Assembly: GCA_016931055.1 (NCBI GenBank)
Contig: JAFGFL010000066.1
Span: 1-52,091, forward strand
Reading direction: 5' to 3'
Length of the DNA: 52,091 nucleotides
From: Candidatus Omnitrophota bacterium
Lineage (GTDB): Bacteria > Omnitrophota > Gorgyraeia > Zapsychrales > Zapsychraceae
Shown here: positions 5,591-12,377 of the stretch, piece after piece
Numbering within the stretch: position 1 is the first letter of the stretch
Layout of the letters: the number at the start of each line of letters is the position of its first letter
Program-made: the position numbers and the translations under genes
Notes under the pieces: generated by a model
The model's input: the letters and a program-made list of their open reading frames with translations, nothing else
Databases searched by the model: none
What the model was told of the DNA's origin: nothing

Positions 5591-8500
5591 TTATGCCTCT
5601 ATATCCTCCGCTTCCCATTCCCGGACATACGCGGCGATCCGGTTCTTGTTCATGGGATCCAGCCCGCGGTAACTCATGTCACTATCCTCTGTTTCCCCGC
5701 CTAGCATGCCCAGAAGGAGCGGTAAGTTGTTGGCCACGGGCGTAATATTGATAATTACGGGCAAAAACCCTTCAATCTTCATGTTGTAAACCGGCTGCTG
5801 ATTGAGCGGCAGCGGAATGCCGTTTCCGTCCCGCTTGATCTGCAGGTCCAATAACTCCGGATTAAGATCAATACCGCCAGGCTTAACATCCTTAACCGGT
5901 GAAGACTGGATTTCAGCATGAGCCGCTTTTATCAATTCCTGATAAATATTACCCAATCTAGCCAATCCTTCTTTAATCATATCCTCATAATCGCTTAACA
6001 GATAGCGATAGTCTTCATTAACAGACAGTTGCTCTCTTCCTTCTTCAGGGATTTCATCAATCTTTTTTCTTAAATCAGATAACATTTTAATCATGTCTTC
6101 TACATCAGTTACAGAAACTTCTTTATCTTTTCCAATTCCCGTGTCTTTTAAAAAATCATCTATTGTTTTTTCATAAATCTCATAATCATCTTTCAATGTT
6201 ACCATGTCCTCATCTGAAATCGGCGAGGATTGGAATTTAGAAACGACCGCAGCCCGGCCTTTGGCTCTTGATTCCTCCGCCAAGGCCTTCTGGGCGGCGA
6301 TGTCCATCAATCTTTCCATGCCCTCTCCGATGATAATACTCTTTTTCTCCCATGTATTCGTCATTGGCCTTTTGGAATCTATTGTCTCGCGAAGATTCGA
6401 CAAATGATCCAAGGTTTTCTGAACTTGATCCAAGGCAATCTCAGGACGGCCGGCAATTTCTATTAAACTCCCAAGATCGTATTCAAGTGGCTTTTCTGAT
6501 GCCTCTATCCCAACCCCATCCATTACCACACTTTTCAAAATGTCATTCCATTGCACTATGACCGGTGAGGAAGGAGCTGTCACAATATCCAATGCCTTTT
6601 TCGCCTCGGCTTCTGAAATCTCAATTAGGTCTTTTCGGAATGAAACACCTTTTTCCCTCTCCATATCTTCGATGGAACCCAGAGTAAACTTAAAGTTATT
6701 CCTTAATTCCGCTTCCGAAAAAGAAAAATCCTGTGCAATTTGCCGAGCAGTTGGTTCTTTGCCCTGATTCCGTTCTTCATTCAACCAATTCCGGAATAAT
6801 TGAATATCTTCCGCTTTAATTTCCGAACCAGTGGCTATTCTGTTTAATGCATAAGGCAATCCGATTATCCACCCTCTGTATCGGCCATGCGTCCTAATGT
6901 ATTCCTCAACAGAAACCGGCAAAAAGGTCACATCTTTATCCTCTTGACCCGAATAATAGTCTCGGATATTCGTTGAGGAAGTCCCAAATAGATTAATATG
7001 CCCGAGCGGACTTATAAATCCCGTTCGGATTTTTTCTTTCAATTGTTCAACTTCGTTAGGCGTCGGAAGGCTTTCAAATAACTCCCTAAAATTGAATGCC
7101 AAGACCATTTCTATATTGTTCGCCTGTAGATGTTCCGCTAACAATTTTTGTATCTCTTCCATTTTCTTAACCGTACCCGGTCGAAGATTCTGACCATCCT
7201 TTATTGAAAGCTTATACCCCTGTTCATCAACTTCTTTTGACGGGGCATAAACATGCATATGGTCTCCACCAACTGCCGTGTAAACAAATGTTGTTTTTCC
7301 TTTACGCCCACCGTTAATCTCGATAAGTTTACGATATTTCGTCTCGCCATCTGCTTCCGAACCATCTAATACTTTGGCTAGTACAAGCAATCCTTCAAAA
7401 AGATCCACCCATTCTTGAGCCATTTCGTCGCGTTCCAAAAATGTCGGGTTCAACCCTATTCCCTGTTTTCGATAATCAAACGCATGATTCGCAACACCAA
7501 CAACACTAATTTTTAGTTGTGCTATTGCTCGCAAAACCGGTTCAAACTGACCAAAATGAAGCGGATTAAGGGCAGAGGCAAAAAGACCAACCGTAATATC
7601 ACCGGTGTCCGTCTCATTTCCTGTAAATTCAGAATCTTTTTCGCTCCAACGAACACGCTGTAATTGCATCTCCCCGTTCATCATATGTACCCCAATCTCC
7701 CATAAAGACTCTTTGACCTTTCGCGCCCATTCACTGGCAAGCTGCTCGTTCCTGTTTTTGCCTTTCTGCAAACTGTGGTTCACAAGGTTATCGAAAACTT
7801 TTTCAACATCAACATGGATCTCTTTATTAACATTAGGATAAATGGACTTGGCGTAATTATACTCGGCGATCCGGTTTTGCTCGTGCGTACCCTGGTTTAA
7901 TATGTACACAAACGCGCGTTCAAGCATGCTGTAAGGATCCCCTTTTTCTTTAATCATTTGAATAAAACCGCTCTGAACAACGATCTTCTTCACTCCATTT
8001 TCTGTAATAAAGGCCAGGCCATAAGTGACTTCATTGCCGCTAGCTATTTCCTCAACATGGTTTATATCTGCTTGTTTCCCGGTTCGATTTTGAATATAAA
8101 CCTTTGCATTAATAAATTCTTTTGGCCGAACTTCTATTCTCTGCTTACCTGATTGCTCATAAGCTGCTATCTGTTTTGTGATTTCTGCATCTGTCATACG
8201 CGCATTGTAACTATTTCCTGTCATAATTCCATCACGGTAAGGAATCCCGCTTGGATTAATCCCATCTTCCAATTGCACCAAAACATCTTTCCAGTCTCGC
8301 CCTGTTTCATCACCTGCCAGCGCTTCCCTCACCTGTATCGGAGTGATGCCATACCCGGAAAATTCATGCCTTGTTGTTCCTTCACCTTTGGAATAAATGC
8401 TTTTTAATGTGAAAAGATCATCAAAATTCATTTTACGGATTTTTTCCGTTTCTGTTTCAAATATCTCGACACTCTTCACATGGAGAAAGTTTGCAAGCGA

Positions 8501-11500
8501 ATCCTTCCGCAACTTCAGTTCCACCGGCGAGGAGGCAAGTTTGTTGACAATCTGTTTCCCGACTTCGATTAAAGCATCCCCTCTTGCTGCGTCAATGTTA
8601 CTGTCAGATTTACCAACTAGACCAACATAATACTTAATAACGTCCTGTGTTCCCGATGGGCGCAATAGCAGATTATCACCCGATGCAAAAATAAACTTCA
8701 GCCCTCCTTTAACAGGAATCAAATTAGCAACCTTTTGATCTTGTAACGCCTCCAATTCCTTAACAATCGTTACCTCAGCCAGATTGCCCTTGCTTTCAAT
8801 CTCACGCTTAACTTTCTCGGCTCCAGCTTTGAGGGCGGCTTTTTCTTCACTGGTGGCTTGGATATCGGCAACAGTTTTCACAAATTTGAGACCAACGGTT
8901 TTTTCAATTTTTGTCTTATATTCCGATAAACTCATTCCTGATTTCGCTACCAACCACAATGTCATAAGGCCTATCGCGATCCCGTCATCCCACGATCTCA
9001 TAAACGGCCCAACACCCACATGGGCGCTTTCCTCCCCTGCAACGATAAACTGTTTCCCATGTTTTACAACTTGCTCGACTACCCATTTGAAGCCAACATC
9101 GACTTCAACCATCTCAATTTCTTTCTCACCGACAGCACTTCGTTTAGCATTGATATAATTAACAATGGCATTGGAGAAATCGTTGGTGGCTACCGTTTTG
9201 CCAACGGCACCGCCTTCCAGCCTCACCTCTTCAACCAAGAAATAGGTTAACAATCCAATGAGATCATCGGCGCTGACAAAGACTCCGCCGAAGTCTACTG
9301 TTCCAAAACGATCCGCATCTCCGTCTGTGGCGATACCGATAGATTTCGGGGTTTCCATAACTTTCTTAACCAATGGCTCTCGACTGTTCTTATCATCAGG
9401 TTTTGGGCTCCCTTTGACTTCTTTAAATTCCGGATCTTTGTTGTTCATATTAATCATTTCATAAAGACCCCCCTCAGGCCTGCTTTCATCCTCAAGAGCT
9501 AAATAAATAGCTTGGAGATATTTAACAGAAGTTCCTTGCATAGGATCTAGCACTAAGCGAAAATCACGATTTGCTTTGATGTAATCTACAATATCCTTCC
9601 AGGCTCCAATCTTCTTCAGTGTCGGAATAATGTACTCGCGGGTATATTGCCCAACCAACTGATCAGCATCTAACTCCATTATCATACCGGCGTCTTTGGC
9701 CTCTTGATAATCTGTTGTCTTCAATTGTGCCGCTGTGTTAGCTAAACGGCCTATGGCGTTGGTTACGCCCTCATCCGCAGCCCCTCCATGACTTGGAGAA
9801 AACTTAAAACCATTGTCATCTTTCGGATTATGGCTAGCCGTAAAATTGATAACTCCTGCGATATCATCACTGATACTGGCCCAATATGCTAAAACAGGTG
9901 TTGGCGTGGCCTCAGGAACAAGTAAGACTTTAATCCCGTTAGCCGCAAGAATCGAAGCCGTTTCTCTGGCATTTCTCGGATTGTGTTTCCTTGTATCATA
10001 TCCGACAATAACTGTTCTTTGCCTTACGTTCCCTAAGATATAATCAGCTGCGCCTTGTGTAATCCGCCGAATGACAGGCAAATCGAATATTTTTCTGGAA
10101 TCATTCGTATAATCTTCAATCTTTCCTCTGTCACCACTCGTGCCAAACTCAATTTTTCTTGTATTCACTAATTCTTTAGTCTCTATCTTCACCGGCGAGG
10201 AGGGTGTTTCGCCTGCCGGTCTTCTTACAGCTACGCCTTCAGGAACTTCTTTAGTGTTCTCAAGATTCTCAACCAGGTCAGCTGTCACCATGTGGACCTT
10301 TTCATCTTTTAGGTCTGAATAAATACGAACTTGATCAAAAATATATCCTTGATCCTCTTCTGACAATTGCTGCAACAGCGGGGCAATATGTAATTCAAAT
10401 TCAGCTTGAGTTAAATTGTTCACGTTCAATAAAAATTTGAAAAACGCTCCTCGATTCCCCTTAAGAGACTCAAGTTCATCTATCCCAACAGAAGCCAAAG
10501 CCGTGTTCATTCGTTCCCCAAAGAAACCGCCTGAAAAATACTTGCGCGGGATGATTTCCTGCGTTGCCGGGTCATAGTCTTCCCTAATATAGTTGTAGAC
10601 GCCCTTTTGGAAGGCCTCAAGATACTGGTCATAGATCTTCTGTTTGACCTCTTTGTCTTCAACATCGACCCCCTTGATCTTGTTCTTGTCCACATAGACC
10701 TGGCCCAGCAGGCTTTCTTTAAGATTCTGCTTATACCAGGTGGCCAGGATCATGGAATTGTAAATTTGCCGCAGGTTGGCGAAAGTTTTGCCTTCGTTGA
10801 CTTCTTTTTCGATTTCCGGAATCAGCACTTCGCGGACGACTTCCGAGGTAACACCGCTAATTACTTCCGCGTCTTCTTGTACGGGCGACCGGCCGGTCGC
10901 CCCTACATCTTGTTTATTATATTCCGCCATGGCCTTGTAATCTTCTTCCAGCATGACTTTCAAATGGCTGTCTATTACATAGGCACTGGCCTCATGTTCA
11001 AATACAAGAGCTTTTTCAGGGACAATCCATACTTTATTAAAGGTATTCATCGGGATTTCGGTCGTCCCGTAAAGCTCATAGGCCTTTTTATAGACCCTGT
11101 CCCAGAACTTCTTGCCTAATTCATCTTCAGGGTACATTAAGGATGCGGTGAGTTGTTTTAAGAGGTAATCCTGGGCCAGGAGGTCACGGCCCATTTCCGT
11201 CTCGCCAAAAGATTGGGGAATAATACGGTCTTTTTCGTAAGGAGAAAGGTTGACCCACAATTCTTTCTCAGGGACCGTCAGTGAGGCCAGAAAATATTTG
11301 ATCAGTTTCTGTGATTCATCTTCCAGTTGGCTGCCAACAATACCTGAGTCGCCGGTATCGATCGTAAAGTCGAATTCCAGCGGATTTTCGGGATGGATCG
11401 TTACACCCGTAATCAGTGCAGGAATATAGCCGCTTGTAACCGGAAGCATCACCCCCGGCGCCGGCAAATTAAGGATCGTTGCAGGCAAAACTTGGGCATA

Positions 11501-11608
11501 CGTCATCTGCGGCGGAATCACCGTGCCGAAAATAAACGTAAAGGCAACAAAGGCGGAAAAAATCCGATAAGTTAAATTAGTTTGTTTGTGTTTGATGAAG
11601 CTGATCAT
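5591..11608 (-). CDS. Giant exported multidomain protein: N-terminal region, phosphohexomutase, NadD-like nucleotidyltransferase and SSPV-linked tail segments
   Basis: About 2005 aa. A basic, hydrophobic N-terminus (1-40, ending TYAQ) looks like a signal peptide. Numbering from the track start: 41-470 is an unrecognised, mostly helical region. 471-1026 is a complete alpha-D-phosphohexomutase with FGTSGDRG, TASHNPKDDNG (catalytic Ser593), DGDADRFG, GEESAHVG and RPSGTQD. 1027-1680 holds a NadD-like adenylyltransferase core with NPLHFGQ (N1349) and SSTNIR (1545-1550) then VSVEEYIRTHGRY. 1681-1794 and 1795-1902 are small helical segments. 1903-2006 is a GGIDLNP-containing tail. SSPV or SSPI stands at 471, 1027, 1681, 1795 and 1903, exactly at these boundaries. 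The track start is GTG at 11611; I chose the next codon, ATG, eight bases after AGGAGG. Two cytosol-type enzymes in one exported chain is odd. It may be a polyprotein or a misrouted fusion; the function is unknown. Confidence 0.88.
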   Translation of the reverse strand: MISFIKHKQTNLTYRIFSAFVAFTFIFGTVIPPQMTYAQVLPATILNLPAPGVMLPVTSGYIPALITGVTIHPENPLEFDFTIDTGDSGIVGSQLEDESQKLIKYFLASLTVPEKELWVNLSPYEKDRIIPQSFGETEMGRDLLAQDYLLKQLTASLMYPEDELGKKFWDRVYKKAYELYGTTEIPMNTFNKVWIVPEKALVFEHEASAYVIDSHLKVMLEEDYKAMAEYNKQDVGATGRSPVQEDAEVISGVTSEVVREVLIPEIEKEVNEGKTFANLRQIYNSMILATWYKQNLKESLLGQVYVDKNKIKGVDVEDKEVKQKIYDQYLEAFQKGVYNYIREDYDPATQEIIPRKYFSGGFFGERMNTALASVGIDELESLKGNRGAFFKFLLNVNNLTQAEFELHIAPLLQQLSEEDQGYIFDQVRIYSDLKDEKVHMVTADLVENLENTKEVPEGVAVRRPAGETPSSPVKIETKELVNTRKIEFGTSGDRGKIEDYTNDSRKIFDLPVIRRITQGAADYILGNVRQRTVIVGYDTRKHNPRNARETASILAANGIKVLLVPEATPTPVLAYWASISDDIAGVINFTASHNPKDDNGFKFSPSHGGAADEGVTNAIGRLANTAAQLKTTDYQEAKDAGMIMELDADQLVGQYTREYIIPTLKKIGAWKDIVDYIKANRDFRLVLDPMQGTSVKYLQAIYLALEDESRPEGGLYEMINMNNKDPEFKEVKGSPKPDDKNSREPLVKKVMETPKSIGIATDGDADRFGTVDFGGVFVSADDLIGLLTYFLVEEVRLEGGAVGKTVATNDFSNAIVNYINAKRSAVGEKEIEMVEVDVGFKWVVEQVVKHGKQFIVAGEESAHVGVGPFMRSWDDGIAIGLMTLWLVAKSGMSLSEYKTKIEKTVGLKFVKTVADIQATSEEKAALKAGAEKVKREIESKGNLAEVTIVKELEALQDQKVANLIPVKGGLKFIFASGDNLLLRPSGTQDVIKYYVGLVGKSDSNIDAARGDALIEVGKQIVNKLASSPVELKLRKDSLANFLHVKSVEIFETETEKIRKMNFDDLFTLKSIYSKGEGTTRHEFSGYGITPIQVREALAGDETGRDWKDVLVQLEDGINPSGIPYRDGIMTGNSYNARMTDAEITKQIAAYEQSGKQRIEVRPKEFINAKVYIQNRTGKQADINHVEEIASGNEVTYGLAFITENGVKKIVVQSGFIQMIKEKGDPYSMLERAFVYILNQGTHEQNRIAEYNYAKSIYPNVNKEIHVDVEKVFDNLVNHSLQKGKNRNEQLASEWARKVKESLWEIGVHMMNGEMQLQRVRWSEKDSEFTGNETDTGDITVGLFASALNPLHFGQFEPVLRAIAQLKISVVGVANHAFDYRKQGIGLNPTFLERDEMAQEWVDLFEGLLVLAKVLDGSEADGETKYRKLIEINGGRKGKTTFVYTAVGGDHMHVYAPSKEVDEQGYKLSIKDGQNLRPGTVKKMEEIQKLLAEHLQANNIEMVLAFNFRELFESLPTPNEVEQLKEKIRTGFISPLGHINLFGTSSTNIRDYYSGQEDKDVTFLPVSVEEYIRTHGRYRGWIIGLPYALNRIATGSEIKAEDIQLFRNWLNEERNQGKEPTARQIAQDFSFSEAELRNNFKFTLGSIEDMEREKGVSFRKDLIEISEAEAKKALDIVTAPSSPVIVQWNDILKSVVMDGVGIEASEKPLEYDLGSLIEIAGRPEIALDQVQKTLDHLSNLRETIDSKRPMTNTWEKKSIIIGEGMERLMDIAAQKALAEESRAKGRAAVVSKFQSSPISDEDMVTLKDDYEIYEKTIDDFLKDTGIGKDKEVSVTDVEDMIKMLSDLRKKIDEIPEEGREQLSVNEDYRYLLSDYEDMIKEGLARLGNIYQELIKAAHAEIQSSPVKDVKPGGIDLNPELLDLQIKRDGNGIPLPLNQQPVYNMKIEGFLPVIINITPVANNLPLLLGMLGGETEDSDMSYRGLDPMNKNRIAAYVREWEAEDIEA
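10879..10906. repeat. GTAGGGG-family palindrome inserted in frame in the giant ORF
   Basis: GTACGGGCGACCGGCCGGTCGCCCCTAC has a perfect 20-bp palindromic core. It lies inside the coding sequence of the giant protein and is translated as VGATGRSPV without breaking the frame. A nearly identical copy lies between trpC and trpF at 13069-13096. Confidence 0.8.
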
Positions 11609-11611
11609 CAC

Positions 11612-11806: not shown

Positions 11807-12079
11807 TTACTTATAACCGCAGTTCCCATCGCCTGCCCAAAACATCTGCAAGACATCACGGATAGGGACACATTTAAAAGGTTTTCCGCTTATTGTTTTG
11901 TGCATTCCGAAACGGTTCTCGTAAATATCGCAAAAGAATTTCCCTTTATGTACCTCCATAAGGTGTTCACAGGGGTCATTATCATTGATCCCGCAACACG
12001 AGCCGCAGCAATGGCATAGCACTTCCCACTCATTGAGTTGTTTTGCCTGTAACTGTTCGTATCTTTCCGTATAGGTCAT
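11807..12079 (-). CDS. Small cysteine-cluster protein (YkgJ/CxxCxxCC-like)
   Basis: A 90-aa protein with nine cysteines (C22, C24, C25, C28, C29, C37, C50, C70, C87). The arrangement LCHCCGSCCG, then PCEHL, FFCDIYENR and KPFKC resembles the YkgJ-type zinc/iron-chelating Cys-cluster family, in which the cluster binds a metal and the spacing C..CD.YE.RP..C is common. No clear Shine-Dalgarno precedes the ATG. It lies about 70 nt downstream of the riboswitch terminators and about 195 nt upstream of the giant gene, so it may be the first gene controlled by the riboswitch. The function is unknown; a metal-binding or redox role is inferred from the cysteines only. Confidence 0.75.
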   Translation of the reverse strand: MTYTERYEQLQAKQLNEWEVLCHCCGSCCGINDNDPCEHLMEVHKGKFFCDIYENRFGMHKTISGKPFKCVPIRDVLQMFWAGDGNCGYK

Positions 12080-12190: not shown

Positions 12191-12377
12191 AAAAAATAAG
12201 CCGATAAAGGAGGTTATCTCCCTCATCGCGCTTCGGCAACTCAGCCACCGTATCGCCATCAACCGTTCTTATCGTCTTTGATGCCCAGCTTAACGCTTAG
12301 GGCCTTTTAGGTATCAGACAATTTAGGTCTGTAGTTTTGCGCCCCCAGGTTTCCCTGGGTTTACCTTTATCGGCTTA
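12191..12377 (-). ncRNA. c-di-GMP-I (GEMM-I)-like riboswitch with a long P1 and an enlarged P3 arm
   Basis: Read on the minus strand, a 14-bp perfect stem (TAAGCCGATAAAGG with CCTTTATCGGCTTA) encloses the hallmarks of the c-di-GMP class I aptamer: GGTAAACC, a P2 hairpin CCAGG-GAAA-CCTGG with a GNRA tetraloop, GGGCGCAAAAC, a CCTAAA...GATACGG pair close to the 11-nt tetraloop receptor, and GGCTGAGTTGCCGAA. The family normally has about 90-100 nt; here the P3 arm carries about 75 extra nt with two small hairpins (GCCC/GGGC and CATCAA/TTGATG). The 3' side of P1 runs into TTTTTT and a second terminator. A consensus promoter lies just upstream. The downstream genes are the Cys-cluster protein and the giant protein. 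Ligand identity is inferred from family resemblance. A standalone ncRNA is the alternative. Confidence 0.72.

Follow-up and report, generated by a model that had tools for sequence, protein, structure and literature searches.

The stretch of DNA analysed here (the window) comprises 52,091 nucleotides of Candidatus Omnitrophota bacterium (assembly GCA_016931055.1, contig JAFGFL010000066.1), and its subject is a giant open reading frame (ORF) on the minus strand (5591..11611) that encodes a stop-free chain of 2006 amino acids without a single cysteine. A GTG is found at 11611 and an ATG immediately after it, at 11608. All parts of the chain are given on the minus strand. It begins with a signal peptide (residues 1-39; 11495..11611), in which a lysine-rich start and a hydrophobic core precede a signal peptidase I-type site with the predicted cut between TYA and Q, and continues with a conserved N-terminal domain (N-domain; residues 40-362, ending in RKYFSGG; 10526..11494). 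A phosphohexomutase (residues 487-996; 8624..10153) and a module (residues 1027-1680) with a core resembling the nucleotidyltransferase NadD (approximately residues 1339-1582; 6866..7597) are followed by two short modules and a C-terminal tail module, which starts with SSPV and carries GGIDLNP (residues 1903-2006; 5594..5905). Five SSP[VI] motifs, hereafter called separators, divide the ORF into these modules: SSPV at residues 471-474 (10190..10201), 1027-1030 (8522..8533) and 1681-1684 (6560..6571), SSPI at residues 1795-1798 (6218..6229) and SSPV at residue 1903.

A preliminary description of this DNA, made from its letters alone, had proposed one intact exported ORF that joins a phosphohexomutase with four catalytic loops to a NadD-like nucleotidyltransferase, and both enzyme assignments were borne out. 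In a Pfam profile search, PGM_PMM domains I-IV spanned residues 487-996; domains I, II and III scored above the Pfam cut-off (E 2e-29, 3e-12 and 3e-14) and domain IV slightly under it (20.8 vs 23.1 bits). The four-domain architecture of the alpha-D-phosphohexomutase superfamily is accompanied by all four loops, namely the Ser (TASHNP, residue 591), metal (DGDADR, 763), sugar (GEESAH, 859) and phosphate (RPSGT, 984) loops. The substrate is not assignable because the module scored far under the NCBIfam equivalog cut-offs for Pgm and GlmM (108.7 vs 778 and 116 vs 448 bits, respectively). The nucleotidyltransferase has NPLHFGQ at residue 1349 and SSTNIR, the SSTxIR motif of NadD, at residue 1545. 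The predicted structure of residues 1126-1641 (predicted local distance difference test score, pLDDT, 79; predicted template modelling score 0.82) had its best PDB matches all among NadD proteins, with a template modelling score to the target of ~0.75 and a probability of 1.00. Against the curated NCBIfam model of NadD, the sequence scored below the cut-off (13 vs 187 bits). This module has a 57% identical counterpart in a genome of another taxonomic family of the same order and none among the sampled members of the window genome's own genus, which implies that modules move between chains.

The N-domain (~330 amino acids) and the GGIDLNP tail recur in three further giant ORFs of the window genome, with N-domain identities of 57-69% across the four. 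The cargo between N-domain and tail is PGM with NadD in one ORF, phosphoglucose isomerase (PGI; E 3e-189) in another, a starch-synthase-like GT5 in the third and iPGM with PFK in the fourth. The predicted N-domain model had a pLDDT of 74, and structure searches of PDB and BFVD returned nothing that matches its fold. A profile built from these four N-domains detected at least 492 loci in species genomes; the 78 loci kept for analysis all came from Omnitrophota or from apparently mislabelled or unlabelled bins. The N-domain was present in 90 of 285 sampled Omnitrophota genomes and in 35 of 37 from the window genome's order, and single genomes had 17, 13, 9 and 7 matches (all candidates scored, some of them partial). 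Among 88 complete unique family ORFs (median length 1820 amino acids), 81 had at least 1000 amino acids and 75 carried the tail signature, in agreement with the earlier suggestion that such a tail occurs in other large Omnitrophota proteins. The window ORF contains no frameshift or assembly join, given that its three sister ORFs and dozens of ORFs in other genomes repeat the order of N-domain, cargo and tail.

Two short tail-only matches (L014 and L015; G000:C84 and C5) lie outside family ORFs and are possibly remnants or stand-alone tails. Another very long open frame (L160-L162; G071:C15:1-52234, minus strand) encodes 17,411 amino acids with an exported-type start and a terminal NadD-like module and is devoid of the family N-domain; similar long frames were observed at G323:C30 (10,142 amino acids) and G286:C56 (8,222 amino acids).

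Signal peptides were scored by a heuristic scan for a positive n-region, a hydrophobic core and a signal-peptidase-like site, and the layout seen in the window ORF was common to 100 of 105 distinct family N-termini. The four family proteins of the window genome contain 0, 0, 0 and 1 cysteine over 7024 residues, compared with 12.8 per 1000 residues in 21 other genes of the window. Across the family, cysteine falls from 14.1 per 1000 residues before the cleavage point to 0.67 per 1000 in the mature part, and the depletion begins directly after the signal peptide; this step is independent support for export. No sustained transmembrane-like segment was detected in the four ORFs of the window genome (with one marginal window in P0002), so they do not have the multiple transmembrane helices of giant Omnitrophota adhesins. 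The signal peptide also argues against these proteins being cargo of bacterial microcompartments.

As in polyproteins, one common motif is located at the module junctions. Separators of the type SSP[VIL] occurred 4.8 times per 10,000 residues in cargo vs 0.9 in other ORFs. A second type, DxAM[LVMIT], occurred 9.5 times vs 1.0; this pattern was derived from the same data in which it was counted and its enrichment is partly post hoc, which does not account for the exclusivity of the separators or for their junction position. At least two separators of one type were found in 21 ORFs for SSP and in 40 for DxAM, and at least two of both in none. By genome, SSP and DxAM separators numbered 1 and 32 in G128, 0 and 36 in G132, and 23 and 1 in G136. 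Conservation is confined to 4-6 residues, with unconserved flanks, and none of 37 separators fell within Pfam domains, which cover 33% of the sequence (p ~4e-7). Both types are found inside one taxonomic family, implying that the motif switches as a whole. The simplest cause of this pattern would be a genome-to-genome difference in protease specificity. A mobile DNA repeat as the source of SSPV or DxAM was considered and dropped, since the encoding codons vary.

Cargo was identified by Pfam scans of 68 ORFs and then of 31 more from selected genomes, with some overlap. The enzymes comprised PGI, PFK, FBPase, aldolases I and II, TIM, GAPDH, PGK, iPGM, a histidine-phosphatase-type mutase, enolase, PPDK, PGM, UDPGP, 4-alpha-glucanotransferase (GH77), transketolase and acyl-CoA dehydrogenases, and among the other cargo were ankyrin, WD40 and kinase domains. 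A 2991-amino-acid chain of 'Ca. Zapsychrus' has the order GAPDH-GAPDH-PGK-enolase-aldolase-like, and isocitrate lyase and malate synthase share one exported chain of 4340 amino acids (L119 728-13747, minus strand), in which a phosphopantetheine-type domain was also noticed. The iPGM is circularly permuted, with the metalloenzyme C-part ahead of the iPGM_N part; at L013 (5342-10711, plus strand) a single exported chain carries the permuted iPGM and, behind it, one partial and one full PFK. The TIM of L070 is probably permuted as well, judging from its alignment: canonical residues 60-252 are followed by a GNNK strand resembling the N-terminus, a match that is short and not significant alone. 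Tandem copies, as present for GAPDH and aldolase, are the usual route to permutation. In the same L070 ORF (1245-9872, plus strand), residues 2230-2404 form two 87-amino-acid repeats between SSPV separators, which look like acyl carrier proteins with the serine missing.

These genes stand beside ordinary counterparts. A PGI match was obtained in 31 of 33 genomes, nearly always a small divergent PGI of ~430 amino acids; the classic E. coli-type PGI occurred additionally in G000 and G115 only, both times within giant exported ORFs. PGK lay within frames of more than 1100 amino acids in 11 genomes, 10 of which had a normal PGK too, whereas the control, adenylosuccinate synthetase (PF00709), occurred in 70 of 74 genomes, always in frames of at most 525 amino acids. 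Ordinary-sized genes for GAPDH, PGK, TIM, enolase, PFK and PGM are present in G000, as is a separate PGI, and the idea that an exported enzyme is the sole copy of its genome was dropped because of these separate cytoplasmic-type copies; a canonical iPGM was not found in G000 with the query used. In a PGK tree the cytoplasmic copies clustered and the exported ones had long branches, and no reliable origin emerged.

Catalytic residues are retained in the exported enzymes. In GAPDH, isocitrate lyase and PPDK the catalytic cysteine is among the few that remain: SCTTN is kept in both GAPDH copies of two different chains (four times in all), SCNTT, which we take to be the class II GAPDH motif, holds the sole cysteine of the 2819-amino-acid L025 chain, KKCGH of isocitrate lyase holds the sole cysteine in the 3764 amino acids of L020, and PPDK-type modules in two chains keep CGEHG. 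Retention of catalytic cysteines amid general depletion argues for selection on catalysis. Eight exported PGK copies, some of them ~25% identical, keep 10 to 13 of 13 functional residues. Codon-position differences in PGI, the NadD-like module and GT5 were 0.19-0.23 at the second position and 0.57-0.61 at the third, and by this measure the cargo is under strong purifying selection.

Upstream of the window ORF we observed a c-di-GMP-I riboswitch (12232-12375, minus strand; 65 bits), with a promoter-like site before it and terminator-like hairpins after it; a small cysteine-rich ORF (11807-12079) lies between this element and the giant ORF. Control of the latter by c-di-GMP may exist through this riboswitch. 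It was dropped as a family-wide trait, being confined to the window and found at none of 11 other family loci.

Taken together, the window ORF is likely to encode one of a large family of multi-enzyme polyprotein precursors that Omnitrophota export, which would be cut at the separators and act outside the cytoplasm. At the level of sequence, the export signal, the architecture, the identity of the cargo, the constraint on catalytic residues and the cysteine depletion are established. It is very likely that the chains are exported and catalytically maintained, and cutting at the separators appears fairly probable from the motif pattern. The preliminary description had left three options for the fusion. 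Two of them are strongly favoured here: a processed polyprotein, because the architecture is modular and one type of short separator marks the domain junctions in each genome, and an unusual compartment, because of the conserved signal peptide and the cysteine depletion that starts after it. Use of the folds for another purpose is disfavoured, because the catalytic loops are kept, the modules are under purifying selection and catalytic cysteines are among the few retained. 

For the remaining steps we infer the following scheme. A Sec-type signal peptide would take the chain out of the cytoplasm, and the N-domain and the GGIDLNP module may serve as carrier and sorting parts, with exchangeable central-carbon enzyme modules between them. 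One protease per genome would read SSP[VIL] or DxAM[LVT] and free the enzymes; phosphorylated sugars and related metabolites could then be their substrates. The enzymes would most plausibly work in the periplasm or, speculatively, where the cells touch lysed prey or host material, which might also supply ATP, NAD and CoA; a closed compartment would instead require transporters. Central metabolism is regarded as cytoplasmic since its substrates and cofactors are cytoplasmic. That this bacterial order runs an additional central-carbon metabolism outside the cytoplasm (glycolysis or gluconeogenesis, the glyoxylate shunt and glycogen-type chemistry), with enzymes made as cysteine-purged exported polyproteins and released by a genome-specific protease, is put forward tentatively, as somewhat less than an even chance.

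Several observations weigh against this interpretation. Neither a protease for the proposed cleavage nor a secretion system for the export was identified, and ATP, NAD and CoA are normally not found outside the cytoplasm. A search for an ATP/ADP translocase gave 0 of 74 genomes, which is uninformative because the control genomes were equally silent. Neither separator is clear in two genomes (G045 and G077). The NadD-like module has HxGQ (HFGQ) in place of the HxGH of NadD, its relatives having HxGQ or HWPH. One exported PGK is degenerate (G286), and another (G110:C77:10843-11966), at the end of a 2258-amino-acid family ORF, is broken over three frames by either decay or sequencing error; a canonical PGK was not found in genome G110. 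Many modules had no Pfam match; central carbon is therefore a prominent theme of the chains and not their entire content.

Other explanations have to be weighed against the same evidence. The need of the enzymes for ATP, NAD or CoA would be met if the chains were predatory or symbiotic effectors that, after export, enter another cell with cytosolic substrates and cofactors. Some eukaryote-like cargo (ankyrin, WD40 and kinase domains) and the proposal that Omnitrophota with giant ORFs are predators or symbionts (PMC10066038) are consistent with this, but no delivery system or translocation domain was seen, the cysteine depletion suggests a long stay in an oxidising space, and the cargo consists of broad housekeeping enzymes rather than toxins; we regard delivery as unlikely, though worth serious attention. 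Nearly the same standing, perhaps a shade lower, is given to active chains that remain whole as a secreted multi-enzyme scaffold or metabolon, with SSPV and DxAM acting as hinge or docking motifs. Consecutive pathway steps on one chain (GAPDH-GAPDH-PGK-enolase), tandem duplicates and circular permutation (iPGM and probably TIM) would suit a continuous chain. However, a passive linker would need neither a strict motif of 4-6 residues with unconserved flanks and a wholesale switch between genomes nor the same motif delimiting the tail and the N-domain.

The modules could also serve the cell surface as structural or adhesive components without enzymatic activity, comparable to moonlighting glycolytic enzymes, as the chains are exported, very long and fast-evolving and some modules are degenerate. 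Such a role is improbable in view of the catalytic loops kept in PGM, PGI, TIM, enolase and iPGM, the catalytic cysteines kept while almost all others were lost, the strong purifying selection and the dedicated genes apart from cytoplasmic copies. An artefact (a chimeric assembly, a wrong start or a pseudogene) might be suspected given that nearly all genomes were assembled from metagenomes, but it is contradicted by the same architecture in dozens of independent assemblies, stop-free frames, codon-level constraint and a conserved signal peptide. Exported polyprotein precursors remain the preferred reading. If it is true, it would point to an unknown compartment, to metabolites being digested externally or to the dispatch of metabolic enzymes into other cells; the protease of such a bacterial polyprotein system could be searched for by way of the single cutting motif of each genome, and the family would offer naturally occurring enzymes that are circularly permuted and free of cysteine.

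Exported chains of central-metabolism enzymes appear not to have been described before: no literature on Omnitrophota polyproteins, fusion proteins, signal peptides or periplasmic glycolysis was found among open-licence papers. Giant ORFs above 20 kb have been reported in this phylum, including a 39,678-amino-acid protein of 'Ca. Velamenicoccus' (Seymour et al., 2023; PMC10066038), and are described as rich in transmembrane helices, with adhesion domains and a low number of annotated domains; polyproteins and signal peptides are unmentioned in the main text. The present family likewise consists of very long exported or surface proteins, but these are soluble, share an N-domain and a tail and carry recognisable central-carbon enzymes. 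Giant multi-domain, enzyme-bearing Omnitrophota proteins with Skillet-clade lipocone domains, transmembrane segments and toxin-like lipocones are also on record (eLife 108061; PMC12419801), and in the part of that article considered here glycolytic cargo, a cysteine purge and separators are not mentioned. Viral polyproteins similarly have enzyme modules parted by a short motif that one protease per genome reads, whereas the present family is bacterial and exported, has many paralogous polyproteins per genome and is only putatively cleaved. In eukaryotes, glycosomes and glyoxysomes house another set of glycolytic or glyoxylate enzymes at a location of its own, although these are imported singly via peroxisomal targeting signals and not exported as fused chains with Sec-type signals. 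Finally, the moonlighting glycolytic enzymes of bacterial surfaces also occur outside the cytoplasm, but they are ordinary cytoplasmic proteins without a signal peptide, whereas the Omnitrophota chains are encoded by dedicated, cysteine-purged genes.

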